From the IMG/VR virus record IMGVR_UViG_3300020442_002301, positions 1-22,640 of that record: a DNA stretch of 22,640 bases; one strand, 5' to 3'. Every line of letters starts with the position of its first letter. Within the stretch, counting starts at the first letter, position 1. Under the pieces are notes generated by a model that searched no databases, was not told the DNA's origin, and worked only from the letters and a program-made list of their open reading frames with translations. Positions 4,040 through 19,798 of the stretch are shown in pieces. The translations under genes and the position numbers were made by a program. This stretch comes from a virus.

Positions 4040-4788
4040 TATTAGATAAAAAATACATACAAAGTTTTATTACTAATAACCAGATTATAGAAGATGATAA
4101 AACTATTCTTAAACCTGTAAATTATAGATGGACTCATGGAGCTACTGATTTTCATATGGGTGATGGATTATTAATTTATTCTATTATTCAATATATGAGA
4201 GCTAAAGTATGTGTTTGTTTAGGATCAGGAGGAGGTTTTATTCCTCGTATTATGACTCAAGCAAGAGTAGATTTATATGATACTGAAATATTTGAAGGTA
4301 ATAGAGATTATAACTGGGGTGATATCGGTACTACTTTTATAGTAGATGCTGCAAATCAAGTAGGAGGTAATGTAGATTGGCTACCAGAAGATTCTTTCTT
4401 TAGAAAAATATTTTCCCCTAGAATTATTAATGATACTACAGAAAATGCTTATTATAACTTTTTTGTAAAAGAAGATTTAAAAATAGATTATTTACATATT
4501 GATGCTGGTCATTCTTATAAAGATGTAAAATTAGACTTTCACATGTACAGTTCTTTATTATCTGAACATGGTATTATATCTATTCATGATACCGATATTA
4601 GATACGCTGAAAATTACATAGTTACAAAAGATATAAAAGATCAAGACCATCATGATGAGTTTGCTAATGGACCTTCTGAATTTATTAAAGAGATAGGAGA
4701 TGAATGGCAAAGATTTGATTTCTTTAATGAAGGAACATATCCTAAAAAACCAAGTTCAACAGGATTAACATTATTAAGACGTGCTTAA
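4036..4788 (+). CDS. Class I SAM-dependent methyltransferase, Methyltransf_24-like
   Basis: This 250-aa protein has the landmarks of a Rossmann-fold methyltransferase. CVCLGSGGGF at residues 59-68 is the SAM-binding glycine loop (motif I), and an acidic VDLYDTEIFEG segment follows. DYLHIDAGHSYKDVKLDF at 151-168, with GIISIHDTD at 179-187, is characteristic of the Methyltransf_24 family, whose members often sit in polysaccharide and glycan clusters and methylate sugars. The acceptor here is unknown. It starts in an ATGA overlap with the upstream transferase and overlaps the next gene by 8 bases, so translation is probably coupled. Context suggests O-methylation of a sugar made or attached by the neighbouring transferases, which is inference. 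Confidence 0.82.
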   Translation: MILDKKYIQSFITNNQIIEDDKTILKPVNYRWTHGATDFHMGDGLLIYSIIQYMRAKVCVCLGSGGGFIPRIMTQARVDLYDTEIFEGNRDYNWGDIGTTFIVDAANQVGGNVDWLPEDSFFRKIFSPRIINDTTENAYYNFFVKEDLKIDYLHIDAGHSYKDVKLDFHMYSSLLSEHGIISIHDTDIRYAENYIVTKDIKDQDHHDEFANGPSEFIKEIGDEWQRFDFFNEGTYPKKPSSTGLTLLRRA

Positions 4789-5620
4789 TTTAGTTACAGT
4801 AGTAGGAGAAAATACTCATATATTACCTCATATGTTAAAACATTATGAAGGAGTAGTAGATAAATTCCATGTAGCTGTATATAGACAATCAGAAGATGAT
4901 GGTATATTAGAAGAGGTTGAAAAATTAGGTATTGAACCTTACGATGTATACACAGACGATAAATATAATTGGAATACTGTAACTCATATTTACAATGCTA
5001 TCAAAAAAACTAAACCTGATGAATGGTGGATAGTATGTGATGATGATGAATTGCAAGTATATCCTAGACCTATTAAGGACATAGTAAATGAATGTGAGAG
5101 ATACGGTTATGACTTTGTCACAGGAGGTTTCTTAGATAGAATAGGTACTAATGGTACCTTTCCAAAAGTAACGAGAGAGACTAATATTCACGAAGCCTTT
5201 CCTTATGCTGGTTTCTTTAGATACCCAATGTCTGGTGCTTGTCCTAACAAAGTTACATTAATGAAAGGACATCAAGAAATAACATCAGGTCAGCATTATG
5301 CTAAATTTAAGGATAATACTAATAGTTGGGGCACTGAACATCCTAAAAGAATGCCTATAAATGATTGTTTTGTTCAAGTACATCATTTTAAATGGGATGA
5401 AACCTGTATAGAAAGAATAAAAAAAGTAGCAGATGTTAAAAAAGATTATTCTTATTCAGAAGAATATGAAATAATGTATAATGCTATAAAGGATTCCGGA
5501 TGGAAAATAGATATACAAAATCCTACGTATAAAGTTGAAAAGCTGAAAGAATTTTCGTATATTAAGTATAATGACTATACTCAATGGTCTGTGTTAAGAA
5601 ATAAAATAGTTTTAATATGA
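4781..5620 (+). CDS. Glycosyltransferase, GT2-like
   Basis: This 279-aa protein has a GT-A fold layout. The N-terminus LVTVVGENTHILPHMLKHYEG is the usual 'stay-at-home, look at the other site' start of family 2-like transferases that act by inversion. A VDKFHVAVYRQSEDD strand follows, and EWWIVCDDDELQVYP at about 81-95 has the acidic DDDE nucleotide-sugar and metal site at 87-90. The C-terminal half carries HHFKWDETCIERI, which often closes such folds. No membrane span is visible, so it is probably soluble. Donor and acceptor are unknown. It overlaps the methyltransferase by 8 bases and the next small gene by 4 (ATGA). Confidence 0.8.
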   Translation: MLNLVTVVGENTHILPHMLKHYEGVVDKFHVAVYRQSEDDGILEEVEKLGIEPYDVYTDDKYNWNTVTHIYNAIKKTKPDEWWIVCDDDELQVYPRPIKDIVNECERYGYDFVTGGFLDRIGTNGTFPKVTRETNIHEAFPYAGFFRYPMSGACPNKVTLMKGHQEITSGQHYAKFKDNTNSWGTEHPKRMPINDCFVQVHHFKWDETCIERIKKVADVKKDYSYSEEYEIMYNAIKDSGWKIDIQNPTYKVEKLKEFSYIKYNDYTQWSVLRNKIVLI

Positions 5621-5850
5621 GTCAAAAAAAGACAGCAAGTTTCGGTAAACCAACTTTCGAACAACAAATTATCGAAGAAAGAAAGTTAAAAGCTTTAGAA
5701 AAGATTGCTAACTCTTTAGATGCTCTAGCTTTATGGTTTGAAGAAGTCGATAAAGAAGAGTGGGGAGATAGAATTCAATATTATTTAGCTGAATGGCATA
5801 AAACCTTACCAAAGAAAGAAACAGAAGAAGAAGTAGAAGAGGATGCATAA
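5617..5850 (+). CDS. Small charged helical protein, unrecognised (77 aa)
   Basis: I do not recognise it as a named family. It is short, highly charged and mostly helical. Residues about 15-45 (EQQIIEERKLKALEKIANSL) form a likely coiled-coil or helical hairpin, DKEEWGDRIQYYLAEWH follows, and it ends in an acidic EEEVEEDA tail. There are no cysteines and no leader-core layout, so it is a poor RiPP precursor candidate. It is linked at both ends by overlaps (4 bases upstream, 8 bases downstream), which ties its expression to the glycosyltransferases. It could be a small partner, adaptor or regulatory subunit. The role is unknown. Confidence 0.65.
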   Translation: MSQKKTASFGKPTFEQQIIEERKLKALEKIANSLDALALWFEEVDKEEWGDRIQYYLAEWHKTLPKKETEEEVEEDA

Positions 5851-7246
5851 ATTAGGTATTATAGTACCATATAGAGATAGAGAAGAACAGCTTAAAACTT
5901 TTATAGCTGCTATTAAAGACTATATACAAGATATAGATTACCAAATTATAGTTGTTGATCAGCAATGTGATAACGATTTTAATAGAGGTAAACTATTAAA
6001 TATAGGATTTTTAAAAGCTATGAGATTAGGATGTGACTATGTTGTATTTCACGATGTAGATATGTTACCGGTAAAAGTTGATTATTCTTATTCTCCTAAG
6101 GTACTACACCTAGTTAATGATTTAAGAGTTCCTGAAGGATTTAAGAGAACACATTTTGATGAATACTTCGGCGGTGTAACTTTATTTCCAGTAGAATTAT
6201 TTAAAGCTGTAAATGGTTATTCTAATGAATTTTGGGGATGGGGATTTGAAGATGATAATTTAATGTTAAGATGTGTTAAGGCAGGATTGGAGTTAGATAC
6301 TAAAGTTATTACACAAAGAGGGAGAGATGGTGTAGCTTTAGAGTTTAATGGTAAAGATTCATTTGTAGCATGTCCTAATGTATTTAATTCTATAAGAGAT
6401 TTTACTGTATTTATAAACTTTCAAATAGATCAAATAGAACAAAACCCTAAAAATATTACAGATGAAAGTTCTATATTTTCCATACCAGGTAGAGATACAA
6501 CTTTAACATATAATTCATTTAGAAACTTTGCTTTTCAATTTTGGAAAAAAGATTTAAGTTCAATGAATATAAATTCTGAACATTATCCTGAAGGTAATTA
6601 TAGCGTGGCTATAACTATAGGAAATAGAAAAGATCCTAAGGAAGTTAAGTTTTGGATGAATGGTAGAGAAATAGGTAGATTAACTTATGATAAAATGATG
6701 GATATCAAACAAGCTAAATATTTTTATTTAGGAGTAGGAGATCCTGAAAGAGAAGAAAAAAATAATTGGTTTGATGGAAGAATATCAACCTTTGCTGTTT
6801 ATCCTGAAGTATTAGATCAACTTTCATTAGAGAGAATAAGTAATAATGTTGAGCATAGTTTATTTCAAGTAGTAGATGCAGAACCAATATTATATTATGA
6901 TGCTAAATTTGTAAAGAATCAAGAACTATTAGATTTATCAGGGAATGGAAATCATGGTAGATGTTTCAATACTTACGGTACTGTTACTAGTAGACAAGAT
7001 ACTATGAATATTCCTATACCTTTTAGAAGAGACGGTGTATTAAGAGGACTTAAGCACGATGAAAATGGATATGTAGACGGATATTGGAAGACTTGGCAGA
7101 GTAGAGAAAACCAATTAAGATATTATAAACAGTTTTACGATAAAGATTATGATTATAATAAAGAAGGAGTTAACAACGTCTTCTATACTAAAATAGGAGA
7201 AGAAGTAAATGATAACGTTGTACATTTAAAAGTAGCATTAACATGA
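5843..7246 (+). CDS. GT7-type galactosyltransferase with a LamG-like domain nested in the catalytic fold
   Basis: The first ~150 residues carry the signature order of the GT7 beta-1,4-galactosyltransferase family: VPYRDRE (8-14), FNRGKLLNIGF (46-56), HDVDMLP (70-76, DVD metal site), YFGGV (108-112) and NGYSNEFWGWGFEDDNLMLR (124-143). About residues 160-385 then look like a LamG/concanavalin-like domain (ALEFNGKDSFV, later WFDGRISTFAVYPEVL and DLSGNGNHG). From about 395 the GT7 C-terminal lobe resumes: VLRGLKHDENG, then EGVNNVFYTKIGEE near 441-454. So the LamG-like part appears inserted into the enzyme and not appended. GT7 enzymes move a hexose or HexNAc from a UDP-sugar, and the substrate here is unknown. 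No membrane anchor is seen. It overlaps both neighbours (8 and 4 bases) and has a tandem paralogue next door. Confidence 0.87.
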   Translation: MHKLGIIVPYRDREEQLKTFIAAIKDYIQDIDYQIIVVDQQCDNDFNRGKLLNIGFLKAMRLGCDYVVFHDVDMLPVKVDYSYSPKVLHLVNDLRVPEGFKRTHFDEYFGGVTLFPVELFKAVNGYSNEFWGWGFEDDNLMLRCVKAGLELDTKVITQRGRDGVALEFNGKDSFVACPNVFNSIRDFTVFINFQIDQIEQNPKNITDESSIFSIPGRDTTLTYNSFRNFAFQFWKKDLSSMNINSEHYPEGNYSVAITIGNRKDPKEVKFWMNGREIGRLTYDKMMDIKQAKYFYLGVGDPEREEKNNWFDGRISTFAVYPEVLDQLSLERISNNVEHSLFQVVDAEPILYYDAKFVKNQELLDLSGNGNHGRCFNTYGTVTSRQDTMNIPIPFRRDGVLRGLKHDENGYVDGYWKTWQSRENQLRYYKQFYDKDYDYNKEGVNNVFYTKIGEEVNDNVVHLKVALT

Positions 7247-8655
7247 AATTAGGAGTTTGCGTTCCATATAGAAATAGAGAATTACATCTCAATGAATTTA
7301 TACCTAAAGTAGGTAAATACCTTAAAGATAGAAACATCGATTTTCAGATGTATTTCTGTCATCAAGTAGACGATAAACTCTTTAATAGAGGGGCGACTAA
7401 AAATATTGCAGCTAAACATGCACTAGAAGAAGGATGTGATTATATAGTATGGCATGATATTGATATGATTCCTGTAGAAGGAGGAGGCGCAGACTATTCA
7501 TTCCCAGAAAAAGCTCCAAGACATATTGCTACTAAAATAGAACAGATGGACTGGCAGTTAAAGTATCATGAATATTTTGGAGGTGCAGTTTTATTTAGTA
7601 AAGAACAATTAGAAGCTACTAACGGATATTCAAATGATTATTGGGATTGGGGTATGGAAGATGATGACTTATTTTGGAGATGCCATAAGGAAGGTTTAAC
7701 TAATGATAGTTATTTAGATGTTGACTTGGATGGTTCTCAATTTGTAAGATTTAACGGAGATGATGCCTCAGCATCTATTGATATACCAGAACAATATAAA
7801 AACTTTAACAGAAGATCTCATACAGTTTCAGTTTTAACTAGAGCATTTCAAATGCCTGATAAAAATCCTATATTCTTAATCGGTAGTAAAAAAAGAAGAT
7901 ATGTTGAATACCCAATATTAAGAGTACCAGGTTATGATTACGGTATATCTTTTAATAATTCTAGAGCTTTATCATTAACTTTCTGGAATACTTTTAATCA
8001 ACATAATTATATGTGGTTGAAAAGATATGATAATCAATGGAGCTGGGTAACTGTAGTATTTGATGATTATAATAAACTATCTCATTTTTATTTAAATGGT
8101 ACTGAAGTAGATTCCTTAGCAGGATTTGGTTCTCCATCACCATATAAGTATGAAGGTAGATTAAAAAAATATAATGTAGATAAAGTATATTTAGGATCAA
8201 CACCATCTGAAAAAGAAGATAGCCCTATAAAATATTTCAAAGGAGATATTGCATCAGTAAGAATATGGGATAGAGATTTAACTCCTACAGAAGTTGCAAA
8301 CTTACATAAAGAGGTTCCTTCAGATGGCTTATTTATAGATTTAGATCCTGGTGATTTGAGTTCATATAATAGTGATAATATTACCATAAGTAAAGATGAT
8401 ATTAGAATACCTAACTCTATAATCCCACATAGAGTAGAAGGTAAGATGAGATGTTTACCTCATAAGGATGAAGGTATAGTTGGCGGTAAGTTTGTAAAAG
8501 GAGAAACTACAGCTAGGAATGAAAGACGTTATGTCTTAGAAATGCAGCAAAATAAAATTAACTATAAAAATGATGGCTTAAAACAGGTTAAGTATGAACT
8601 TGTAGGAGAAGAGATACTTACACCGTGGGCTAAGATGATCAATGTTAAATTATGA
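7243..8655 (+). CDS. Second GT7-type galactosyltransferase with nested LamG-like domain (tandem paralogue)
   Basis: Same architecture as the gene before it. The GT7 motifs are VPYRNRE (8-14), LFNRGATKNIA (47-56), HDIDMIP (71-77), YFGGAVLF (111-118) and NGYSNDYWDWGMEDDDLFWR (127-146). A LamG-like insert spans about 163-385 (QFVRFNGDDAS, HFYLNGTEV, YFKGDIASVRIWDRDLTPTEVANL). The GT7 C-terminal lobe follows from about 391: GKMRCLPHKDEG, NDGLKQVKYELVGEE. The insertion point is the same in both copies while the sequences differ strongly, so the nested layout predates the duplication or was inherited together. WDWG replaces the usual WGWG, a possible change in the acceptor pocket. It joins its neighbours by ATGA overlaps at both ends. 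Donor and acceptor are unknown; cytoplasmic location is inferred. Confidence 0.87.
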   Translation: MKLGVCVPYRNRELHLNEFIPKVGKYLKDRNIDFQMYFCHQVDDKLFNRGATKNIAAKHALEEGCDYIVWHDIDMIPVEGGGADYSFPEKAPRHIATKIEQMDWQLKYHEYFGGAVLFSKEQLEATNGYSNDYWDWGMEDDDLFWRCHKEGLTNDSYLDVDLDGSQFVRFNGDDASASIDIPEQYKNFNRRSHTVSVLTRAFQMPDKNPIFLIGSKKRRYVEYPILRVPGYDYGISFNNSRALSLTFWNTFNQHNYMWLKRYDNQWSWVTVVFDDYNKLSHFYLNGTEVDSLAGFGSPSPYKYEGRLKKYNVDKVYLGSTPSEKEDSPIKYFKGDIASVRIWDRDLTPTEVANLHKEVPSDGLFIDLDPGDLSSYNSDNITISKDDIRIPNSIIPHRVEGKMRCLPHKDEGIVGGKFVKGETTARNERRYVLEMQQNKINYKNDGLKQVKYELVGEEILTPWAKMINVKL

Positions 8656-10031
8656 ACACATCCTACGCAAAGGTAAGAGATCAGCTCAATCAAAAAGGAT
8701 GTGGGTTTTGTCTCGCTAAATGGACTCAAGTAACTATGCACTTAGGTGTTGGTTTGACTCACTCATGTCACCACCCGGTACAACATAAGATACCACTTGC
8801 AGAGTTAAAAAGAAATCCTTCTGCCTTACATAATACAAGATATAAAAAGCTTAAGAGAAAAGAAATGCTGGAAGGTAAAAGACCAGCAGAATGTAACTAT
8901 TGTTGGAATATAGAAGATAACTCTAATGCTTTTTCAGATAGAACTTTTAAATCTGCAGAACCTTGGTCTTTAGATCAAATGGAAAAGATTAAAACTTCTA
9001 ATTGGAGAGATAACTATAATCCAAGATATGTAGAAGTTTCTTTTTCTAATACTTGTAACTTAAAATGTGCTTATTGTGGACCTCAATATTCATCTAAATG
9101 GGTAGAAGAGATAGAAAAGCATGGTGAATATAAAACATCTACTGAATTTAATAGTATTAAGTTACTTAAAGAAAGGGATGAAATGCCTCTTAAGAAGACT
9201 GAACATAATCCTTATGTAGAAGCTTTTTGGGAATGGTGGCCTGATTTATACCCAGACTTACATACATTTAGAATTACTGGAGGAGAACCTTTACTATCTC
9301 CTGATACATTTAAAGTATTAGAATACATTCAAGAAAACTGGGAACAGAATCCTAAGTTATCTTTAGCTATCAATACTAACTTAGCTGTACCAGATAAATT
9401 AATTCAAAGAATGTTAACTATAGCAGAAGATTTAGTTAATAATAATAAAGTTAGAGAGTTTATTATCTTTACTTCAGTAGAGGCTATTGGTAAGCAAGCT
9501 GAATATACTAGATGGGGATTAAAGTATGATAAGTTTTGGGAAAATATAGATGAAATTTGTACTAGACTTCCTAAAGTAACTGTTAATATTATGGCTGCAT
9601 TTAATGCATTATCTGTATTTACTTATGGTGAATTGATAGATAAAGTATTAGAGATGAAAAAGAAACATAATAACGGACAAAGGTACTGGATGACACCAGT
9701 ACAGTTAGATACTGCATATATTAGATGGCCAATGCATTTATCAGTTAAAATATTAGAAGCTAAAGATAAAGAAAATATATTAGAAGCAGCTAAAAAAGCT
9801 TTGCATTATGGTTCTAATAAAATGACTAAAACTACATACGGTTTTACTGACGTAGAAATACAAAAGATTAAAAGAGTATATGATTATGCGATAGCAGAAG
9901 ATTCTTTTGATACTGAAAAGTATAGAAAAGATTTTGGAATCTTTATAGAAGAAAATGATAAAAGAAAAGGAACTAACTTTAAAGAAGTATTTCCTGAATT
10001 AGCAGAATTTTATGATAAATATAAGCCGTAG
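8652..10031 (+). CDS. Radical SAM protein 1, N-terminal twitch type, SCHHP subtype
   Basis: This 459-aa radical SAM enzyme has the core motif CNLKCAYC with Cys135, Cys139 and Cys142, which bind the SAM-cleaving [4Fe-4S] cluster, and GGEP at 210-213. Before the core lies a cysteine module, C20...SCHHP (C39)...ECNYCW (C81, C84), matching the layout of the N-terminal twitch radical SAM proteins, where these cysteines would hold an auxiliary cluster. C17 is an extra cysteine. The C-terminus has the FKEVFPELAEFYDKY motif shared by most of the array. The reaction is unknown; relatives with auxiliary clusters modify peptides, proteins or sugars. It starts by ATGA overlap with the GT7 gene and is closest to the gene at 10605. 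The next gene starts 20 bases before its stop. Confidence 0.92.
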   Translation: MNTSYAKVRDQLNQKGCGFCLAKWTQVTMHLGVGLTHSCHHPVQHKIPLAELKRNPSALHNTRYKKLKRKEMLEGKRPAECNYCWNIEDNSNAFSDRTFKSAEPWSLDQMEKIKTSNWRDNYNPRYVEVSFSNTCNLKCAYCGPQYSSKWVEEIEKHGEYKTSTEFNSIKLLKERDEMPLKKTEHNPYVEAFWEWWPDLYPDLHTFRITGGEPLLSPDTFKVLEYIQENWEQNPKLSLAINTNLAVPDKLIQRMLTIAEDLVNNNKVREFIIFTSVEAIGKQAEYTRWGLKYDKFWENIDEICTRLPKVTVNIMAAFNALSVFTYGELIDKVLEMKKKHNNGQRYWMTPVQLDTAYIRWPMHLSVKILEAKDKENILEAAKKALHYGSNKMTKTTYGFTDVEIQKIKRVYDYAIAEDSFDTEKYRKDFGIFIEENDKRKGTNFKEVFPELAEFYDKYKP

Positions 10032-10608
10032 ACATCCATGGGCTTTATGGCCTAACAGTATCTGCCCAGCATTTTTAGATAAACCTGCTGTAGATAGGTT
10101 ACAAGGAGATCAGTATTGGAAAATAGATATAACTTTTTCATATAATGAAGTTAATATGAAGAATCAAAAAGATATATTTTGTATAGTTCCTAAATATACT
10201 GGACTTTCAGTACATGAAAAGAGAATATTTATAGGTGTAGGCCATGAAGATGAAGATGATTGGCATGGCACAGGTGAATTTATAGAACCTAATACTAAGG
10301 AACATTTTACATTTGAACATTTTCCTAAAGATAAATTAGTAGTATATAGAAACGGTGTTAATACTTTTGAATATTCATTAGTTGTGAGACCATTAGCAGT
10401 AGTATCACCACCTAAAGAACCTATAGTATTTATAGGAACTGATAGACATATAGTACAAGATCAACCCGAGGATGATGATATTACAGTTTACGAATTTAAA
10501 ATAACAGTTAAAGAAGGAGTTATTTGCCACCACGATTGGAGTGAAATAATTCATCATAAGTCTGTTGACAAAACAGGCAATTGTAACTTCTTGTATGAAA
10601 TGGCATGA
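10012..10608 (+). CDS. Unrecognised 198-aa protein, possible stand-alone LamG-like/jelly-roll domain
   Basis: No firm family. The pattern KLVVYRNGVNTFEYSL (about 113-128), then PIVFIGTDRHI, then DDDITVYEFKI resembles the 'strand-NG-strand ... iG ... evriy' pattern of LamG/concanavalin-like sugar-binding folds, as in the inserts of the two GT7 proteins. The N-terminus SRRHPWALWPNSICPAFLDKP contains no signal peptide. Three cysteines are scattered and no iron-sulfur motif is present. It sits between two closely related radical SAM genes, overlapping the first by 20 bases and the second by ATGA, so it is translated with them. It may present or bind the substrate for the adjacent enzymes. The fold call is weak and the role is inference. 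Confidence 0.6.
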   Translation: MINISRRHPWALWPNSICPAFLDKPAVDRLQGDQYWKIDITFSYNEVNMKNQKDIFCIVPKYTGLSVHEKRIFIGVGHEDEDDWHGTGEFIEPNTKEHFTFEHFPKDKLVVYRNGVNTFEYSLVVRPLAVVSPPKEPIVFIGTDRHIVQDQPEDDDITVYEFKITVKEGVICHHDWSEIIHHKSVDKTGNCNFLYEMA

Positions 10609-11954
10609 AAACTAGTTACGAAAGAACAAGGCAGATTATAAAAGATATAGCTCCTCAATCGTTTTGTGCAGCAAAATGGTATAATGTATCTATATGGCTA
10701 GGTAATGGTAGAACAGCTTCATGTCACCATCCATTAGCTCATAAAATACCAGATGATGAATTAGCAGCTGATGCATCTGCATTACATAATACAAAACATA
10801 AAAAAGAACAAAGACGTAAAATGCTTGCAGGTGAAAGACCTGCTGAATGTGGTTATTGTTGGAGAGTAGAAGATGCAGCTCAAAGTGAAGAAATTAATAG
10901 TGATAGAATATATCAAACTGCTAGATATACCGAAGAAGAAATAAAAGCATTAAAAGATATACCTTGGGATAAAAATGTAAATCCTAAAACTGTAGAAATA
11001 TGTTTTGATAACTTATGTAACTTAGCTTGTTCATATTGTAACTCAGAATTTAGTTCTACATGGTCTAAAGATATATCTACTAAAGGTGAGTATAAAAATA
11101 TGGTTACTGACGGTGGTAAAACGTATAGACAAGATGGTTCTATAGCAATGCCATTTGGTAATAAAAATGAAGGTAACATTTATGTGAAACGATTTTTTGA
11201 TTGGTTCCCTGAAATAAAAGATGGTATTCAAGAATTAAGAGTATCAGGAGGAGAACCTTCTCGTAGCCCTTCTTTCTGGAAACTTATTGATGTTAGTAAT
11301 GACGAAAAATTTGACTTTGCAGTTAATAGTAATCTAATTATGGAAGATTCTAGATTAGATAGATTAATTAACGCTGGTCAAAAGTTTAAAAAATTAGATA
11401 TCTATACATCTGCAGAATGTATGTATAAAAACCAAGAATTCGTTAGAGATGGATTCGTATGGGATGTATGGGAAAAGAATCTTAAGAAGGCTAATGCCTC
11501 ACCTCATGTGAACGGGGTATATATTATGATGACTATTTCTGTTTTAAGTATATGGACAGTAGCTGAATTTTTACAGCAAATAGTAACATGGAAAAAAGAA
11601 TGTAATGATATACATGCATTTTTTATGTCTGTTAATATACTCCGTTTCCCTTCTTTTCAGAGTGTAAATATGTTACCTCAAGCTACAAAAGAAATGTTAG
11701 CTGATAAAATAGAGAAGGTTATGAAGGTAAATAAAGACTGGATTAACGATTTAGAAAGGAATCAATTCCAAAGGTTGCTTATTTATTTAAGAAGGGTGGA
11801 TACTTCTTATGAGGATGTTGATGCTTACGGTAAAAAGAAAAATGATTTTATTAACTTCATAGATCAGTATGCCGAAAGAAGAGATAAACCCATAAAAGAG
11901 TATATGCCTAATAAATTTTTAAATTGGTACGAAGACCTTAAGAATGGAGAATAA
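10605..11954 (+). CDS. Radical SAM protein 2, N-terminal twitch type, SCHHP subtype
   Basis: This 449-aa protein is the closest relative in the window of the protein at 8652. The auxiliary-cluster module is FCAAKW (C21), SCHHPLAHKIP (C40) and ECGYCW (C82, C85), with an ALHNTKHKK segment between that matches ALHNTRYKK in protein 1. The radical SAM core is CNLACSYC (C138, C142, C145) and GGEP lies at 215-218. SSTWS after the core Cys corresponds to SSKW in protein 1. The C-terminal RDKPIKEYMPNKFLNWYEDL is a weaker form of the terminal motif. It is a predicted cytosolic Fe-S enzyme with unknown substrate. The pairing of two similar enzymes around a small possible sugar-binding protein suggests that the three act on one substrate. 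It overlaps the next gene by 11 bases. Confidence 0.92.
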   Translation: MKTSYERTRQIIKDIAPQSFCAAKWYNVSIWLGNGRTASCHHPLAHKIPDDELAADASALHNTKHKKEQRRKMLAGERPAECGYCWRVEDAAQSEEINSDRIYQTARYTEEEIKALKDIPWDKNVNPKTVEICFDNLCNLACSYCNSEFSSTWSKDISTKGEYKNMVTDGGKTYRQDGSIAMPFGNKNEGNIYVKRFFDWFPEIKDGIQELRVSGGEPSRSPSFWKLIDVSNDEKFDFAVNSNLIMEDSRLDRLINAGQKFKKLDIYTSAECMYKNQEFVRDGFVWDVWEKNLKKANASPHVNGVYIMMTISVLSIWTVAEFLQQIVTWKKECNDIHAFFMSVNILRFPSFQSVNMLPQATKEMLADKIEKVMKVNKDWINDLERNQFQRLLIYLRRVDTSYEDVDAYGKKKNDFINFIDQYAERRDKPIKEYMPNKFLNWYEDLKNGE

Positions 11955-13218
11955 GCCAAAATTTTTATGCTCATTGCCATGGGAACATTTAAGTATACAT
12001 CCTCATGGTCATTCATCTCCTTGTTGTGAAGTAGACTGGGGGAGTGATATCGCTTTTGCAAAAAATAAAATTAATGGTCAATATACTCCTAGTGTTTTAA
12101 ATATTGATAGAGATGGACCTGAAGCCATAATGAACTCTGATGCTTATAAGCAAATAAGAAAAGAGATGCTAGCAGGAGATGTACCAACTCCCTGTCTTAC
12201 TTGTTATAGACTAGAAGAAGCAGGAGGACAATCAAAAAGAAATAGAGAAAAAATAGTAGAAGAAGATTATTTACGTTCTATAACTCAAGATGACGGTACC
12301 ATAGAAGTAGATATTCAGAACTTGGAACTTAGATTAGGTAACTACTGTAATTTAAAATGTAGATCATGCAATGCTGAATCTTCTACATCTTGGATTGATG
12401 ACTATTATAAGTTAAAAGATGAGATTCATATGCCTAGTATTTTCGATAAGTTAAAAAACTCAGAAGATACTTCATATGAATGGGTTGATAAAGAAGAATT
12501 TTACGAAGAAATTTTAAAATACACCTCTAAACTTCATAGACTTCAGATAAGTGGTGGAGAACCTTTCCTTGTTGATAAACATAGTCATTTACTAGATTTA
12601 TTAATTGATAATGATATAGCTAAAAACGTTCATATATCTTATATTACAAATGCTAATTATAACTTTGATAAAGTTAGTGAAAAGTTCTTTGATAAACTTA
12701 CTAAGTTTAAAAGTGTTAATATGTCAATTAGTATAGATGATGTAGATAAAAGAAATACATATATTAGAAGTTTAAGTAACTGGAATTTAACTATAAAAAA
12801 TCTTAAAAGATTTATAAATGAATATCCTTCATTTCATTATTCAGTAACTCAGACTATAAATGTATTTAACTTTTTATATGTAGAAGAATTATCACAGTTT
12901 TTAATTAATGAAGGCTTACTTTCCTTAACTGGAAAAAAACCTCTTTATATAAATGATAATTATGTCTTCTCTCCTGAGTATCAAAGTGCTAATGTTTTAC
13001 CTTTAGAGGTAAGGAGAGAAAAAATAGATAGTATAGAAGGTAAATTACCTGTAACATTTTATAATAGATTAAAGTCTAACTTTTATAATACAGATTGCAA
13101 TGAGTTAGGTATGGATTGGGTAAAGACTACTAATGCTGTAGATAGAGTAAGAAGAGAAAAAGTTACTGATATATTTCCTGAGTTATATAAAATTATAGCA
13201 AATGAGTACAAAATTTAA
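11944..13218 (+). CDS. Radical SAM protein 3, N-terminal twitch type, SPCC subtype
   Basis: This 424-aa protein opens with FLCSLPWEHLSIHPHGHSSPCCE (C9, C27, C28). This is the common 'C..PW..L.i.p.G...PCC' start of N-terminal twitch radical SAM proteins, followed by PCLTCYRLEEAGG (C84, C87). The radical SAM core CNLKCRSC has C135, C139 and C142, and GGEP lies at 204-207. VSISIDDVDKRN in the later barrel is the usual position of a strand close to SAM. The C-terminus RREKVTDIFPELYKII is the shared terminal motif. It differs from the SCHHP pair by having CC at the second cluster position. It overlaps the upstream gene by 11 bases and the next by 17. Substrate is unknown. Confidence 0.92.
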   Translation: MENKPKFLCSLPWEHLSIHPHGHSSPCCEVDWGSDIAFAKNKINGQYTPSVLNIDRDGPEAIMNSDAYKQIRKEMLAGDVPTPCLTCYRLEEAGGQSKRNREKIVEEDYLRSITQDDGTIEVDIQNLELRLGNYCNLKCRSCNAESSTSWIDDYYKLKDEIHMPSIFDKLKNSEDTSYEWVDKEEFYEEILKYTSKLHRLQISGGEPFLVDKHSHLLDLLIDNDIAKNVHISYITNANYNFDKVSEKFFDKLTKFKSVNMSISIDDVDKRNTYIRSLSNWNLTIKNLKRFINEYPSFHYSVTQTINVFNFLYVEELSQFLINEGLLSLTGKKPLYINDNYVFSPEYQSANVLPLEVRREKIDSIEGKLPVTFYNRLKSNFYNTDCNELGMDWVKTTNAVDRVRREKVTDIFPELYKIIANEYKI

Positions 13219-14584
13219 ATGGCCAAAACACGATAAACTAAAAAGTACAAAATCGTTTTGTGTACTTCCTTGGTTGCATTTAAATGTACAACCTAACGGA
13301 GATATATACCCTTGCTGTATGGCACCTTATGGAGATACTATAGGGAATACCTCAGACAATACTTTAGAAGAAATATGGAACGGGGTAGCTATGAAAGACA
13401 TCAGAAAGAAGATGTTAGCTGGAGATAGACCAGAACTATGTCAAAGATGTTTTCTAATAGAGGATAATGGTTTAAATAGTCCAAGGTATACCCATAATGA
13501 TTATTTTAAAAATCGTATGGAAGAAGTATTAGATATGACTGATGAAAAAACAGGAGAAGTATCTGAGTTTAAATTAAGGTACTGGGATTTTAGATGGTCT
13601 AATATTTGTAATTTTAAATGTAGAATGTGTGGAGTTTACTCTAGTAGTAAATGGCATCAAGAGGCTATGGAACTCCATAACGATACTACAGCAGCTGATA
13701 CTAAAGGTATATTAGAATTTAATTCAAAAGGTAAAGAAGATACTTTTGCTTTAGTAGATAAATTTATATATGATGTAGAAGAGATATATTTTGCTGGAGG
13801 AGAACCTTTGGTAATGGAAGAACATTATTTAATTTTAGAGAAACTTATAGCAGCTGGAAGAACTGATGTAAGATTAAGATATAATACTAACTTTAGTCAT
13901 TTAAAATTTAAAAAATGGGATTTATTTGGAATGTGGCAACATTTTATAAATGATCCTAAAGGACATATACAATTATTTGCTTCGTTAGATGCAGTAGGTA
14001 AATTAGCAGAAGTAATTAGAGATGGTACTAAATGGAATAATGTATACCAGAATATAAAAAAATGTCAAGGTACCGGTATTATGATTTATTTTTCTCCTAC
14101 TATTAGTTTATTAAATATGTTCTTTATAGACGAACTTATAGATGTAGCAGCAGAATTAAATATAGACGTAGATAAAATAAACGTAAATAATATATTAACA
14201 ACCCCAGGATTTTATGATGTTAGATTATTACCTCAATACCTTAAAGATGAATTAATAAATAAATTAAAAGATTATAGAGATAATAAAGTACATCCTAAAT
14301 ATAGAGGAGTAGTAGAATATGGTTTAAAAAGTTGGAGTAGTTTTATTAACGAACCATTCAAAGGAGATAGAGAAGCTGAAGAGCAAAGCTTACTAGCTAA
14401 TACAGTCTATTTAGATGTTAGCCGTAAACAATCTTTTTTAGAAGTTAACCCTCAATATGAAAGATGGTTTAAAGAGATAAGACATAGACTTGATAGCAAA
14501 GGAATAGATTGGAAAAAATTACCAAAAGGAAAGAAAGAACCAATAATAAAAGTAACTAAAAAAGAAACCAGGCCTTTAATATGA
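13202..14584 (+). CDS. Radical SAM protein 4, N-terminal twitch type, YPCC subtype
   Basis: This 460-aa protein has SFCVLPWLHLNVQPNGDIYPCC (C20, C38, C39) and LCQRCFLIED (C80, C83), the auxiliary-cluster module. The radical SAM core is CNFKCRMC (C136, C140, C143) and GGEP lies at 199-202. GNTSDNTLEEIWNG at about 48-61 is a typical linker in SPASM/twitch proteins between the second cysteine and the final pair. The shared terminal motif is degenerate (FLEVNPQYERWF) and is followed by a basic ~35-residue tail not seen in the others (KKLPKGKKEPIIKVTKKE). That tail could be an RNA-, DNA- or partner-binding extension. It overlaps the next gene by ATGA. Substrate is unknown. Confidence 0.92.
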   Translation: MSTKFKWPKHDKLKSTKSFCVLPWLHLNVQPNGDIYPCCMAPYGDTIGNTSDNTLEEIWNGVAMKDIRKKMLAGDRPELCQRCFLIEDNGLNSPRYTHNDYFKNRMEEVLDMTDEKTGEVSEFKLRYWDFRWSNICNFKCRMCGVYSSSKWHQEAMELHNDTTAADTKGILEFNSKGKEDTFALVDKFIYDVEEIYFAGGEPLVMEEHYLILEKLIAAGRTDVRLRYNTNFSHLKFKKWDLFGMWQHFINDPKGHIQLFASLDAVGKLAEVIRDGTKWNNVYQNIKKCQGTGIMIYFSPTISLLNMFFIDELIDVAAELNIDVDKINVNNILTTPGFYDVRLLPQYLKDELINKLKDYRDNKVHPKYRGVVEYGLKSWSSFINEPFKGDREAEEQSLLANTVYLDVSRKQSFLEVNPQYERWFKEIRHRLDSKGIDWKKLPKGKKEPIIKVTKKETRPLI

Positions 14585-15609
14585 CAAAGGTACTAGATAA
14601 AAAAGATTGGGTCTGTACTCAACCATTTGAGTTTGCAGAAATATTCGACCATAAGATGTTTATGTGTTGCCCTAACTGGTTACCAGAAGATCTAGGAAAT
14701 CCTAATAATATTTTAGATAATTTTAAATCTGAGAAAGCACAAGCTATTAGAGATAGCATGCTTGATGGTTCATATAAATACTGTATAGAGGCTAGATGTC
14801 CAAAACTTACAGGATTAAAAGAAGGTAAAACTACTGGTTTTATTCCTAAATCAGAATATATTAAAAGAATAAAAGAGTTTGAAAATCAATATCCTCATCA
14901 GTTAAAATTTAATTTTGATCAAAGTTGTAATTTAAGATGTCCTTCTTGTAGATTAGATTTTATAAATTATGAAGGTAAGGAAAGAGAAAGAACAGAAGAA
15001 TTAATTCAGAATATAGAAGACCAGGTTGGTAATATTTTAACTCATATTGAATGTACGGGATCAGGAGATCCTTTCTTTTCTAGAACTTTTAGAAAATGGA
15101 TGATGAGATTTGATCCAACTAAATATCCTAAGTTACAATCTATACATTTACATACTAATGGTACATTATGGAATGAATCTAACTGGGTTAGAATGAAAAA
15201 CGTTCATAGGTTTGTTAAGAGCTGTGAGATATCTGTAGATGCTTCTAATAAAGATACATATGAAAATGTTACTAGGTTAGGAGGTAAGTGGGATAAGTTG
15301 ATGGAAAATTTAGAATATATTTCTAATATACCAACATTAAGAAATGTTACTCTATCATTTGTAGTTCAAAATGATAACTTTACTGAAATGGTAGACTTTT
15401 ATGATTTAGCAGGATCTATCTTTGGAGGTAAAAATAAGGAATGGAGTGTTTTTTATAATAGAGTAGTTAACTGGGGGCATTGGTCTAATGAAAAGTTTAA
15501 CTCTGTCGATGTAGGTAATCCTAACCATCCAGAATTTAATGATCTAATGCAGGTATATAAAAGACTACCAGTAGTTAATAATATAAGACATAATTTAACT
15601 ATATTATGA
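14581..15609 (+). CDS. Radical SAM protein 5, divergent short member (GSGDP instead of GGEP)
   Basis: At 342 aa this is the shortest and most divergent member. The core CNLRCPSC (C116, C120, C123) is intact. The GGEP motif that contacts the SAM amino group is replaced by GSGDP at 160-164, as in several radical SAM subfamilies that still bind SAM. The N-terminal module is WVCTQPFEFAEIF (C12), FMCCPNW (C29, C30) and YCIEARC (C68, C73). The last pair is spaced by four residues instead of two. The FPEL-type C-terminal motif is missing and the protein ends soon after the barrel. It is linked to both neighbours by ATGA. The reaction may differ from that of the other five, or it may be an accessory or regulatory subunit. 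Family assignment is firm; activity is not. Confidence 0.88.
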   Translation: MTKVLDKKDWVCTQPFEFAEIFDHKMFMCCPNWLPEDLGNPNNILDNFKSEKAQAIRDSMLDGSYKYCIEARCPKLTGLKEGKTTGFIPKSEYIKRIKEFENQYPHQLKFNFDQSCNLRCPSCRLDFINYEGKERERTEELIQNIEDQVGNILTHIECTGSGDPFFSRTFRKWMMRFDPTKYPKLQSIHLHTNGTLWNESNWVRMKNVHRFVKSCEISVDASNKDTYENVTRLGGKWDKLMENLEYISNIPTLRNVTLSFVVQNDNFTEMVDFYDLAGSIFGGKNKEWSVFYNRVVNWGHWSNEKFNSVDVGNPNHPEFNDLMQVYKRLPVVNNIRHNLTIL

Positions 15610-16799
15610 GTTTGAGATGTGTACATATTGATGCTGGTTTAAGAATACAGAATAATGGTTCGTATTCACCTTGTTGTGTTGCAAGAGAAGTCGCGTATAA
15701 GGATGAAAATGGAGAGTATATGAATGTTAAGACTCATACATTCGATGATGCTTTTGCTTCTCCTACCTTAAAAGAAATAAGAGATGCTTTTAAAAATAAT
15801 ATTAAGCATCCAGGTTGTTCTGATTGTTGGCAAGAAGAAGCATTAGGTAAAAAAAGTAAAAGATTAAGAGATAACGATAAAACTAAATTAGATAAAGTTA
15901 CTTATAATAAACCTCATTCATTAGAACTTAATTTAGGTAATATCTGTAACCTTGCTTGTAGAATGTGTTATTTAGGAGCTTCAATGAATTGGAAAAAAGA
16001 AGTTAACTTAGTTAGAGATCCTGATGAGCAATGGGACCAGGAAAAAGTAAATTCAATTGCTAAAGAACATAATAATTCTTTTACTGACGATAGTATTATA
16101 TGGGAACAGCTCCATAAAAATATGAAATATGTTAAATGGATAGATACTTACGGTGGAGAGCCTATGATGATGAAAAAGCAATGGGATGCTTTACGTTATA
16201 GTGTAGAACAAGGATATGCTAAAGAACAGTATATCCATTTTAATACTAACGGTACTATATTTAAACCTGAGTATGTAGATATTTTAAAACACTTTAAAAA
16301 AGTAGATATATCTTTCAGTATAGACGGCACTGAAAAGTACTTTGAATACATAAGATACCCAGCTAAATGGAGTGATGCAGAAAATACTATGGATACTTGG
16401 TTGGAAAATACAAAAGAATTTACTAACTTTGAATTTGACCTCTGTTTTACTTTTCAAATACTAAATGTACTTGATTATGGTAAGACAGCGGCATGGGCTA
16501 AAGATAGAGGAATTAGAATTTATAGAAATGCAGTATATGCTCCAAAATATTATAATGCTACAAATATAGCAGAGGAGTTAAAACCTGCAGTTATAGAAAA
16601 AATTAGATCTATACCAGTTAAGTATCCTGAAATTAGAGAAGAATGGGAAGAGATAATAAACCATATTAACTTTAAAGAAGGAGAACCTGATGCATGGAGA
16701 AGATTTAAGACTTATAATAAAAATTTAGATAAATCTAGAAATCAATCTTTTGAGGAATTATTCCCAGAGGAAACTAAGTTGTATAAAATAGTTATTTAA
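15606..16799 (+). CDS. Radical SAM protein 6, N-terminal twitch type
   Basis: This 397-aa protein starts MSLRCVHIDAGLRIQNNGSYSPCC (C5, C23, C24) and has GCSDCWQEEALGKKSKR (C71, C74), the auxiliary-cluster module in its shortest form. The radical SAM core CNLACRMC has C114, C118 and C121; GGEP lies at 183-186. VDISFSIDGTEKYFEYIR downstream is a typical conserved barrel strand. The C-terminus SRNQSFEELFPEETKLYKIVI is the shared terminal motif. It starts by ATGA overlap, and the following gene's ATG overlaps its TAA (TAATG). It is the last of six in the array. Substrate is unknown; it is a cytosolic Fe-S enzyme by prediction. Confidence 0.92.
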   Translation: MSLRCVHIDAGLRIQNNGSYSPCCVAREVAYKDENGEYMNVKTHTFDDAFASPTLKEIRDAFKNNIKHPGCSDCWQEEALGKKSKRLRDNDKTKLDKVTYNKPHSLELNLGNICNLACRMCYLGASMNWKKEVNLVRDPDEQWDQEKVNSIAKEHNNSFTDDSIIWEQLHKNMKYVKWIDTYGGEPMMMKKQWDALRYSVEQGYAKEQYIHFNTNGTIFKPEYVDILKHFKKVDISFSIDGTEKYFEYIRYPAKWSDAENTMDTWLENTKEFTNFEFDLCFTFQILNVLDYGKTAAWAKDRGIRIYRNAVYAPKYYNATNIAEELKPAVIEKIRSIPVKYPEIREEWEEIINHINFKEGEPDAWRRFKTYNKNLDKSRNQSFEELFPEETKLYKIVI

Positions 16800-17644
16800 T
16801 GGACGCTATATTTACCTGGAAAAATTTAAGTACTGCAAAGGAGTTGCAAAGTACATTTTTTTGGCATTACGCTAAAATTAGTGTACAAACTGCTTCTAAA
16901 TATCATAAAACTATTTTATATACTGATACGAAAGGGGCAAAACAGTTTAAAAATAATGGGATAGGATTTGATGAAGTAGTAATCTTAAAAGAAATAGAAG
17001 ATATAACAGGTAGTTTAATTTGTATACCTAAAATATACACTATGCTTCAAAGAACTGAACCTTACGTTCATTTAGACTTTGATATCTTTACAAATAGAGA
17101 ATACCATACATATGAACCAATAGCTTTTGGGTACCCCGAAGTTAATTTAAAAAAATATTTCGGTCTTACTGAATTAAGGTATTTAAACGATAACTATCTA
17201 AATGCTTATGAAAAAGAATTTTATATGTACTTCGATGGTAAAAACTGGGATTGGAGATTAATACCTAATTTTGGCGTCTTTATAGTTAATAATCCTTCTT
17301 TAGTTAAAGATATATTTTCTAGAATATTAAAAAAGATAGAAAGATTCGAACCAAGTTCTAGTACTAAACATGAATATGCTTCATTTATAGAGCAATTTTT
17401 ATTTATGCGGTATGTTGAAGAGTTTGATATAGATTATGAATTTATATACGATAAGTCACCTTTTACGTTTAAAGATAGCAATTTCGTATATGTAAAAGAT
17501 AAAATGATTAATGTAAGTTATAAATCAGGTATAAGTACGCATTTGAATACTTTAAAGTTTGCACACTTTCATGGTTATAGAAAATTTCCTACATTTAGCA
17601 ATACGATAATTAAAAAATTAATAACAAAAGAAAACCCAATATAA
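16799..17644 (+). CDS. Putative GT-A-like glycosyltransferase, relative of the 3182 gene
   Basis: This 281-aa protein starts MDAIFTWKNLSTAKE. TEPYVHLDFDIFTN at about 86-99, with DFD at 93-95, aligns by motif with REPFVIMDNDTLVF in the protein at 3182-4039. Both have a Lys/Tyr strand about 40-45 residues in (ILYTDT here, VLYCDD there) before the DxD. The second half has NWDWRLIPNFGVFIVNNPSLV and later an EQFLFMRYV helix, matching EQLLLRWIL in the other protein. So the accessory block is bracketed by two members of one putative transferase family. No signal peptide or membrane helix is seen. The acceptor is unknown. It overlaps the radical SAM gene by one base. Confidence 0.65.
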   Translation: MDAIFTWKNLSTAKELQSTFFWHYAKISVQTASKYHKTILYTDTKGAKQFKNNGIGFDEVVILKEIEDITGSLICIPKIYTMLQRTEPYVHLDFDIFTNREYHTYEPIAFGYPEVNLKKYFGLTELRYLNDNYLNAYEKEFYMYFDGKNWDWRLIPNFGVFIVNNPSLVKDIFSRILKKIERFEPSSSTKHEYASFIEQFLFMRYVEEFDIDYEFIYDKSPFTFKDSNFVYVKDKMINVSYKSGISTHLNTLKFAHFHGYRKFPTFSNTIIKKLITKENPI

Positions 17645-18031: not shown

Positions 18032-19798
18032 ATGGCAGAAACATTAATTTCCCCAGGCGTATTAGCGAGAGAAAATGACATTTCTTTTATCGCACCAGCA
18101 GCTATCGAAGCAGGGGCAGCAATTTTGGGACCTACTGTAAAAGGACCTGTTGAAGAGCCAGTAAAAGTAACTTCATACGGACAGTATCAAAATATATTTG
18201 GTACAGTATTTACTTCTGGATCTACAAAACAAGAATTTCTTACTTCTATTGCTGTTAAATCTTACTTTAACCAAGGTGGTACTTCAATGCTTGTAACTAG
18301 AGTTGTTACAGGTTCATTTGGCGTTGCTAGTAACTCAACAATCTCAGCAGCAGATTCAGGTACAGCACCATTTACATTAGCTACTTTAGGTAAAGGAGCA
18401 ATCTTTAATAACATCACAGGATCTACTTACAATGAAGTAGGATACGACGAAAATAGTGATGGTTCTTTAGTATCAGGTTCTTCTGATAACTTAAGATGGG
18501 AGATTGTTAATCAAGATACTGCAGCTGGAACATTCGGTCTATTAATTAGACGTGGGGATGATAACTCAAAGAACAAAATTATCTTAGAAACTTGGAACGA
18601 TTTATCATTAGATCCAAATTCTGAGAACTATATCGAATCTGTTATCGGTAATCAAAGCAAGTCAAAAGCTGTAGATAACGGACAGTATTATATTACAACT
18701 ACTGGTGAATATGTAAACAGATCTAAATACATTAGAGTATCTGGTGTAGCAAGACAAACATTAGACTATGTAGGTAATGATGGATTAACAGTTGGTACTG
18801 ACGAATCAGGAAATTCATTCTCTGGATCTCTTCCAAGTAACCAATCAGGTTCATTCCACGGAGGTACTGGTAATAATGTAGTAGGTGGAAGCACGAGAGA
18901 CAAATACTTCGGTGACATTAACGGAACAGATACACAAGGTTTAACAGGAGCTTGTTATGCAGATGCAATTTCAATCTTAGGAAATCAAGACGAGTACGTT
19001 TATAATATAATTTCTGCCCCAGGATTGATTTATGAATTTGGAGATCACAAGACTCAGATAGACTCAATTATCTCTACAGCTGAAAGTAGAGGAGATTGTA
19101 TCGCTGTTATTGATGTACAGAATTATGGCGCAACAGTAGCTAACGTAACAGGAACTGCAGCAACATTAAACAGTTCTTATACTGCTACTTACTGGCCATG
19201 GTTACAAACTTTATCATCTAATGGAAAAACAGTATGGATTCCAGCATCAGTAATTATACCAGGAGTATATGCATTTACTGATAGTGCAGCAGCACCATGG
19301 TTCGCTCCAGCTGGTTTAACTAGAGGTGGTTTAGGAGACGTAATTCAAGCAGAAAGAAAACTTACAAGATCTCAAAGAGATACTTTATACAACGCAAATG
19401 TTAACCCAATTGCAACATTCCCAGGAAGTGGAATCTCAGTATTTGGTCAGAAAACATTGCAAAAGAAAAAATCTGCTCTAGATAGAGTAAATGTTAGAAG
19501 ATTGTTAATTGATCTTAAGAAATTCTTAGGAGATACAGCTAAGCAATTAGTATTCGAACAAAATACTATCGCAACTAGAAATAGTTTCTTAGCTACAGTT
19601 AACCCTTACTTAGAATCAGTAGTACAAAGACAAGGTCTTTATGCATACAGAGTAGTAATGGATGACACAAACAATACTCCTGACACGATTGATAGAAACC
19701 AGTTAATCGGGCAAGTATTCATTCAACCAGCTAAAACAGTTGAATTCGTAGTACTAGACTTTACAATCGAGCCAACAGGCGCAACTTTTGGAGCATAA
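18032..19798 (+). CDS. 18: Tail sheath protein (gp18-like)
   Basis: This 588-aa protein is the contractile tail sheath of T4-like phages. The N-terminus LISPGVLARENDISFI followed by GPTVKGPVEEPVKVTSYGQY and YFNQGGTSMLVTRVV is the conserved sheath start, with its 'SPGV..E.D.s' handshake region. The middle, about 150-340, is a variable Gly/Ser/Asn-rich surface domain. The C-terminal part is the conserved sheath core: LTRSQRDTLYNANVNPIA, then DRVNVRRLLIDLKKFLG, then RNQLIGQVFIQPAKTVEFVV. Length is near the T4 protein's. It polymerises around the tail tube and contracts on infection. It sits directly before the tail tube gene, the usual T4-like order. The start has no Shine-Dalgarno site but is fixed by the conserved N-terminus. 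Confidence 0.96.
   Translation: MAETLISPGVLARENDISFIAPAAIEAGAAILGPTVKGPVEEPVKVTSYGQYQNIFGTVFTSGSTKQEFLTSIAVKSYFNQGGTSMLVTRVVTGSFGVASNSTISAADSGTAPFTLATLGKGAIFNNITGSTYNEVGYDENSDGSLVSGSSDNLRWEIVNQDTAAGTFGLLIRRGDDNSKNKIILETWNDLSLDPNSENYIESVIGNQSKSKAVDNGQYYITTTGEYVNRSKYIRVSGVARQTLDYVGNDGLTVGTDESGNSFSGSLPSNQSGSFHGGTGNNVVGGSTRDKYFGDINGTDTQGLTGACYADAISILGNQDEYVYNIISAPGLIYEFGDHKTQIDSIISTAESRGDCIAVIDVQNYGATVANVTGTAATLNSSYTATYWPWLQTLSSNGKTVWIPASVIIPGVYAFTDSAAAPWFAPAGLTRGGLGDVIQAERKLTRSQRDTLYNANVNPIATFPGSGISVFGQKTLQKKKSALDRVNVRRLLIDLKKFLGDTAKQLVFEQNTIATRNSFLATVNPYLESVVQRQGLYAYRVVMDDTNNTPDTIDRNQLIGQVFIQPAKTVEFVVLDFTIEPTGATFGA

Follow-up and report, generated by a model that had tools for sequence, protein, structure and literature searches.

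A row of N-twitch radical SAM genes is the 3' half of a glycosyltransferase-containing operon that recurs in uncultivated aquatic phages

We analysed a 22.6-kb fragment of an uncultivated virus with T4-type late genes (IMG/VR record IMGVR_UViG_3300020442_002301, positions 1 to 22,640; this whole stretch of 22,640 nucleotides is hereafter the window), in which six successive open reading frames between 8652 and 16799 encode radical S-adenosylmethionine (rSAM) proteins, here rSAM1 to rSAM6. This array is the 3' half of a 14-gene operon (3182-17644), in which each gene overlaps the next by 1-20 bases and which also encodes glycosyltransferases (GT). Because the surrounding and recurring neighbours of the array are sugar genes, we read the rSAM enzymes as sugar tailors and favour, with slightly better than even confidence, a variable phage glycan-tailoring island in which these enzymes act on sugars. 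On this reading the window shows one of the forms that a modular phage glycan island can take, and is no unique six-gene curiosity.

All six proteins exceeded the Pfam cut-off for Radical_SAM and matched the NCBIfam family NF033640 (N_Twi_rSAM), five of them above its curated whole-protein cut-off of 170 bits (279-369 bits) and rSAM5 below it (64 bits), as were the orthologues of rSAM5. Judged by these profile scores, rSAM5 is a related divergent protein that we do not place in the N_Twi_rSAM family. Each protein carries four N-terminal Cys, spaced C-X16-18-C-X38-56-C-X2-C with the last pair as C-X4-C in rSAM5, plus three core Cys, and the motifs for the radical cluster and the auxiliary cluster are intact in all six. 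A sequence-only reading of the same DNA had described six consecutive rSAM genes with an N-terminal Cys module, all overlapping and interrupted only by one 198-aa gene. This description was borne out for the array, where neighbours overlap by 4-20 bases and the gene at 10012-10608 is the sole break, and the profile search proposed there gave the scores above. However, the overlap runs on to 3182 upstream and 17644 downstream, which had been missed, and the positions given for the CNxxCxxC cores turned out to be gene starts, the cores themselves lying near 9054, 11016, 12346, 13607, 14926 and 15945 as calculated from residue positions.

The other five proteins share only 20-27% identity with rSAM4. 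A tree of 104 proteins places each of the six beside orthologues of other phages, the lineages of rSAM1 and rSAM2 lying together. Across orthologue sets of 148, 114, 33, 30, 23 and 17 proteins (about 365 in total from six families, with rSAM6 counted on the rows covering the sites), the seven cluster Cys never vary where aligned, with counts of 149/149, 115/115, 34/34, 31/31 and 24/24 for rSAM1 to rSAM5. Furthermore, the ratio of nonsynonymous to synonymous substitution rates (dN/dS) against orthologues in two related loci (L008 and L011) is 0.07-0.26, a range like that of the sheath and glycosyltransferase genes. By these comparisons the array consists of six separate, old and selected lineages of predicted enzymes and not of copies of one, and six distinct conserved lineages in one operon support the multi-step modification pathway that the sequence-only reading had proposed. 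Inspection of rSAM2 orthologues of 509-543 aa revealed no LamG fusion, the extra length being mainly a C-terminal extension without LamG similarity.

Upstream of the array, two consecutive genes encode GT7 enzymes, with the N and C catalytic regions above the Pfam cut-offs and a DxD and a WGWGxEDD-type motif present. Catalytic fold and motifs are as in beta-1,4-galactosyltransferases (CAZy GT7; b4GalT1, b4GalT7), from which the two enzymes of the window differ by a LamG/pentraxin-like domain that separates the GT7C region from a conserved C-terminal part. We read this domain as an insert in the catalytic domain because the part following it is more conserved than LamG itself (0.70 vs 0.59); in copy 1 the LamG_3 match stays under the Pfam cut-off. 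Copy 2 gave a profile match to b4GalT7/b4GalT1 (E about 1e-38), and Foldseek with its model returned b4GalT structures first, followed by pentraxins and other LamG-fold proteins. Conservation of DID, WDWGmEDDD and H407 suggests that copy 2 is active. The 198-aa gene within the rSAM array is homologous to the LamG inserts of the two GT7 enzymes, since a hidden Markov model (HMM) of its family retrieves the GT7-LamG proteins, and a homologue stands 3' of rSAM1 in most loci. The 77-aa protein encoded beside the GT7-LamG genes has a conserved charged middle and variable ends among its 58 homologues, and was without a match in Pfam and NCBIfam scans. In the DUF6734 protein that opens the operon D99 and D101 are invariant, and from this D-x-D the protein may be GT-A-like (Table 1).

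Table 1. Features of the window with their positions and the evidence for each assignment.
Feature	Position	Strand	Evidence
Tail-fibre-like protein with C-terminal S74 chaperone	27..2114	+	Pfam Peptidase_S74 and PHROG tail fibre families
DUF6734 protein, first gene of overlapping unit	3182..4039	+	Pfam DUF6734 E 2e-8; paralogue at 16799
Methyltransferase (Methyltransf_24)	4036..4788	+	Pfam; in 64 related loci of first set
Glycosyltransferase family 2 (Glyco_tranf_2_4)	4781..5620	+	Pfam E 4e-6, just over cut-off; in 68 loci of first set
77-aa conserved cysteine-free protein, probably helical	5617..5850	+	58 homologues, same position
GT7 (beta-1,4-galactosyltransferase-fold) enzyme with inserted LamG, copy 1	5843..7246	+	Pfam Glyco_transf_7N/7C
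GT7 enzyme with inserted LamG/pentraxin-like domain, copy 2	7243..8655	+	Pfam; profile; AlphaFold pLDDT 89
rSAM1, N-twitch radical SAM	8652..10031	+	NF033640 332 bits; AlphaFold pLDDT 92.7
198-aa free-standing LamG-like domain	10012..10608	+	HMM homology to GT7 inserts
rSAM2, N-twitch radical SAM, sister lineage of rSAM1	10605..11954	+	NF033640 279 bits; tree
rSAM3, N-twitch radical SAM	11944..13218	+	NF033640 317 bits; Pfam SPASM E 1e-6
rSAM4, N-twitch radical SAM	13202..14584	+	NF033640 369 bits; Pfam SPASM E 2e-13
rSAM5, divergent short member, 342 aa	14581..15609	+	NF033640 64 bits, below cut-off 170
rSAM6, N-twitch radical SAM	15606..16799	+	NF033640 304 bits; SPASM E 9e-7
DUF6734 protein, second copy, last gene of overlapping unit	16799..17644	+	Pfam
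Tail sheath protein, downstream neighbour	18032..19798	+	PHROG tail sheath E 4e-73
Tube gene	at 19836		Pfam/PHROG matches
Hub protein gene	at 21881		Pfam/PHROG matches

Scanning IMG/VR with rSAM1, rSAM2, rSAM4, rSAM6 and GT2 queries and keeping only the best 80 gave about 250 loci in 142 distinct contig groups, and among these loci, gathered via rSAM or GT queries, the order methyltransferase-GT2-77aa-GT7-GT7-rSAM occurs in 60 of the 142 groups, GT7-GT7-rSAM in 86 and rSAM-LamG-rSAM in 48. The search of viral genomes for the same gene set, which the sequence-only reading had recommended, thus recovered the core order. Counting rSAM genes with gaps up to 2.5 kb as one array, arrays hold zero to nine of them, with at least six in 23 groups and nine in two. 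The statement that N-terminal twitch proteins occur singly in phages is therefore contradicted, since arrays of 2-9 are common, and a six-gene array is not unusual. As for the outcomes named as refuting the earlier proposal, decaying copies are excluded (see below) and six-gene arrays are indeed common, yet an assigned function was not found for them. Single virus records have up to 21 N_Twi_rSAM matches (L120, a 518,643-base record, G016), with 20 in L173 (246 kb) and 13 in L155 (457 kb). The GT2 query alone gave 60 groups, 56 of them with rSAM genes; in two of the other four the contig breaks off shortly before the position where rSAM would stand. At one locus (L200, 2220-13834) the core cassette including the 77-aa gene is kept and rSAM genes are absent, a gene of a family that we call c3 and UGD, a UDP-sugar dehydrogenase, standing before the sheath gene, which we regard as a natural swap of the tailoring module. 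Family c3 (about 446 aa; for example L062, 20028-21365) was found in 42 first-set loci, frequently close to rSAM genes, and is without any match in Pfam, NCBIfam or PHROG.

A second viral cassette, in about 19 groups, consists of fibre-like genes, a 116-aa gene, two GT8-like genes with a weak profile match to glycogenin, a GT8 (E 0.002), and then the array, before which stands another probable glycosyltransferase; the 116-aa gene precedes its own GT-like pair. Protein searches of 50,697 phage records, with rSAM1, rSAM4 and rSAM6 as queries, gave matches in Vibrio phages and in a single marine single-cell virus and nowhere else, and tblastn of the isolated-phage collection with the GT7-LamG, methyltransferase, 77-aa and 198-aa proteins returned no match. 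A bacterial origin was considered and rejected: 84,980 species genomes, in a scan that reaches close relatives only, gave only four matches, of which two (L097 and L098) are near-alike loci in one Marinimicrobia metagenome-assembled genome (MAG), on contigs of 153 kb and 335 kb. These contigs look phage-like and are probably of phage origin, the loci lying near a Peptidase_G2 fibre-type gene. An alphaproteobacterial MAG contig carries an rSAM pair near a carbamoyltransferase. Overall, the layout is common in uncultivated aquatic phages, without an assigned function that we could find.

The genes that accompany these arrays point to sugars. Unrelated lineages, namely the second viral cassette, the cultured Vibrio phage K566 and the alphaproteobacterial contig, also combine rSAM genes with genes of the sugar type. 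Glycosyltransferases are found within the window, nucleotide-sugar enzymes only in related islands, whose variable genes include a GDP-mannose-dehydratase-like short-chain dehydrogenase/reductase (SDR) in 37 groups, UGD in 27, an E1/TPP enzyme in 17, a NodU-type carbamoyltransferase in 14, a DegT aminotransferase in 13 and an inosamine-phosphate amidinotransferase in 12 (E 8e-97 to 1bwd). In whole records, 19 out of 22 GT7 matches have an rSAM gene within 5 kb, compared with 2.1 expected (nine records), and 18 out of 33 SDR-type nucleotide-sugar enzymes have one within 10 kb, compared with 5.7 expected (13 records). Since inosamine amidinotransferase genes occur in the related islands, aminocyclitol-like chemistry would fit. 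The BtrN-type twitch aminocyclitol dehydrogenase has a four-Cys auxiliary module, C-X17-C-X44-C-X2-C, with a spacing similar to that seen here; however, its twitch is C-terminal and that of the window proteins N-terminal, and the rSAM proteins of the window gave no direct sequence match to BtrN and related sugar-acting rSAM enzymes.

Several observations weigh against a sugar-tailoring island. A nucleotide-sugar synthesis gene is absent from the window, so the donor sugar has to be supplied by the host or by another part of the genome. In the whole records PF00535 GT2 genes are not enriched near rSAM genes (2 of 22 within 10 kb), so that not all glycan genes accompany them, and the frequencies above are not population estimates, as the loci came through rSAM and GT queries and from the best 80. 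The structural model of rSAM1 fits several rSAM classes about equally, the best PDB matches being viperin, SuiB, GDGT-MAS and BlsE (E about 4e-4 to 1e-3); no sugar-acting relative was singled out, and as a search for a substrate-specific relative this was uninformative. Moreover, SPASM/twitch rSAM enzymes more often act on peptides.

The last point belongs to the best placed of the alternatives, which we consider unlikely: that the array modifies a virion protein (fibre, sheath or LamG) or a ribosomally made peptide whose gene lies within the operon or close to it, the 77-aa protein being a possible substrate or partner. In its favour are the twitch/SPASM modules, typical of peptide-modifying rSAM enzymes, weak peptide-maturase matches of all six proteins and the conservation of the 77-aa protein next to the GT7 genes. 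Yet the maturase matches are far under their cut-offs and mostly cover the shared core, and the 77-aa protein has no Cys and no repeated or hypervariable core, its conserved part being the charged middle. Furthermore, Pfam and NCBIfam scans showed no recognition element for ribosomally synthesised and post-translationally modified peptides (RiPP), no peptidase and no exporter, 3182-17644 leaves no intergenic room for a hidden peptide gene, and the core cassette with the 77-aa gene occurs without rSAM genes in L200. A RiPP cluster with a SPASM maturase was not supported, with no maturase cut-off reached and neither precursor nor recognition element found.

It is improbable, in our view, that the substrate of the array is a small molecule with no link to surface glycans, for example a nucleotide, a cofactor or a haem-type compound, as for viperin-, MoaA- or AhbD-like enzymes. 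Viperin and MoaA are among the nearest solved sequences and folds, and 'ahbD' is listed by virome surveys as a core auxiliary metabolic gene, with some viral rSAM genes labelled so (PMC9301287). However, no score exceeds 33 bits for viperin (cut-off 180), 43 for MoaA (cut-off 284) and 36 for AhbD (cut-off 500), this last belonging to the gene at 14581, and the scores reflect the shared rSAM core; the fixed linkage, moreover, is to glycosyltransferases and sugar enzymes. Membership in viperin (NF038283), MoaA, AhbD or QueE was rejected, as the similarity is at the level of the core only. Because N-twitch proteins match the AhbD model weakly, some 'ahbD' calls in viromes may concern the N-twitch family.

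Just as improbable is a cargo for host metabolism or fitness, an interchangeable module with no role in virion or surface glycans. It has a precedent in the Campylobacter phages CP220 and CPt10, which encode 11 and 12 rSAM proteins and in which a module comprising five rSAM genes plus an amidinotransferase is interchangeable and was called likely non-essential (PMC2853527). Here, in contrast, purifying selection is strong, the island often lies next to fibre genes and its set of partners is constant, and in the CP220 record the rSAM module itself carries two nucleotide-diphospho-sugar-transferase-like genes, which point back to glycans. The idea of decaying or redundant paralogues from a recent tandem duplication, invited by one family in tandem with a copy number that varies among relatives, can be practically dismissed given the low identity, the separate old lineages with orthologues elsewhere, the conserved cluster Cys and the dN/dS values.

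The glycan-tailoring island that we favour resembles systems already in print, where rSAM-rich phages and 'radical SAM cassettes' beside glycosyltransferases have been reported. Host recognition clusters of pelagimyophages form a hypervariable region with fibres, glycosyltransferases and rSAM gene cassettes as swap units (PMC7029224), and, compared by description, the likeness lies in T4-like marine phages with rSAM cassettes accompanying glycosyltransferases. However, no enzyme family, array or function was stated for those rSAM genes (PMC7029224), and the isolate DNA nearest to the window is that of a Flavobacterium Immutovirus (sheath and tube, 77%), the lineage being probably another than that of the pelagimyophages. 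CP220 and CPt10 likewise are T4-like phages with many rSAM genes in an interchangeable cluster with sugar-transferase-like genes, but the CP220 rSAM proteins are not N_Twi, every NF033640 match staying below 31 bits. Synechococcus phage S-SCSM2R has one rSAM gene, also not N_Twi, among glycosyltransferases and an inosamine amidinotransferase. For NF033640 itself, the five passing proteins cover nearly the full model, with the N-terminal twitch and core alike; the protein at 14581 and its orthologues fall under the cut-off, and the library entry gives no reaction. Vibrio phage K566/K567 has a comparable arrangement, in which GT8-like and GT4-like genes alternate with five N-twitch rSAM genes; no more than two of these rSAM proteins exceed the NF033640 cut-off. 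The GT8-like gene of K566 matches WbbM (E 0.004), the GT4 assignment is by inspection only, and in the scanned stretch of K566 the GT7-LamG, methyltransferase and LamG genes of the window operon were not found. In the K566 record (L093, OZ196521.1; 11705-18441 and 28017-30347 for the five rSAM genes) the glycosyltransferase-like genes are annotated as hypothetical, as is the rSAM gene VPHK566_0308 of this cultured relative, whose rSAM genes also include VPHK566_0303, 0305 and 0306. Full-text searches of the open literature, with subscription papers and preprints outside their scope, returned no description of a GT7-LamG/N-twitch operon, and the operon of the window and its recurrence appear undescribed.

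The fibre gene (27..2114) is the upstream neighbour of the island and lies outside the overlapping unit. The closest isolate DNA is that of Flavobacterium phage immuto, at 77% over sheath and tube only; its fibre-to-sheath interval holds lysozyme and small genes, an island of this type being absent from it, and no N_Twi (NF033640) match occurs anywhere in the record. Between tube and hub, 20380-21818 contains two genes, one with a Glycos_transf_2 match (E 1.5e-10) and one matchless, and because the hub gene directly follows the tube gene in three related loci (L008-L010), this pair appears to be a second small insertion. The T4-type late promoter TATAAATA gave no signal (7 sites vs 8.2 expected, 6 of 7 on the minus strand), and scans for sigma-70 promoters and terminators stayed at chance level.

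We infer the substrate of the rSAM enzymes from the gene neighbours; the target would be the virion or the host surface. In the mechanism that we propose, the glycosyltransferases would build or extend a sugar chain and the LamG domains would hold acceptor or product. Each rSAM enzyme would then abstract a hydrogen from a sugar carbon, followed by oxidation, epimerisation or deoxygenation, and the twitch cluster may bind the substrate or take up an electron. Different phages keep the core and swap the tailoring set (zero to nine rSAM genes, nucleotide-sugar enzymes, amidino- and carbamoyltransferases), so that each phage would make a different glycan. Its purpose, the least certain part, might be to decorate the late virion, at its fibre or tail, or to alter the surface of the host to the disadvantage of competing phages. 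Of the virion or glycan target offered by the sequence-only reading, the neighbouring genes favour the glycan; the position of the island, with the fibre gene on one side and the sheath gene on the other, is no more than suggestive of the virion. A further and clearly more tentative proposal is a new modular pathway in which a series of N-twitch rSAM enzymes remodels sugars previously set on the virion or host surface by lectin-fused galactosyltransferase-like enzymes. Radical chemistry would in this case yield unusual sugars specific to each phage, the array composition being a combinatorial code for the glycan variants of aquatic phages.

In conclusion, marine viromes often contain rSAM genes, which mostly appear in lists of auxiliary metabolic genes under functions that are guesses. 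One large rSAM family is now tied to a conserved, probable phage glycan operon, its enzymes intact and under selection, with Vibrio phage K566 as a cultured phage whose comparable cluster is open to experiment. If our reading is true, radical chemistry would be a means by which phages diversify surface sugars, and this would bear on host recognition, on superinfection immunity and on the hypervariable region of T4-like phages.

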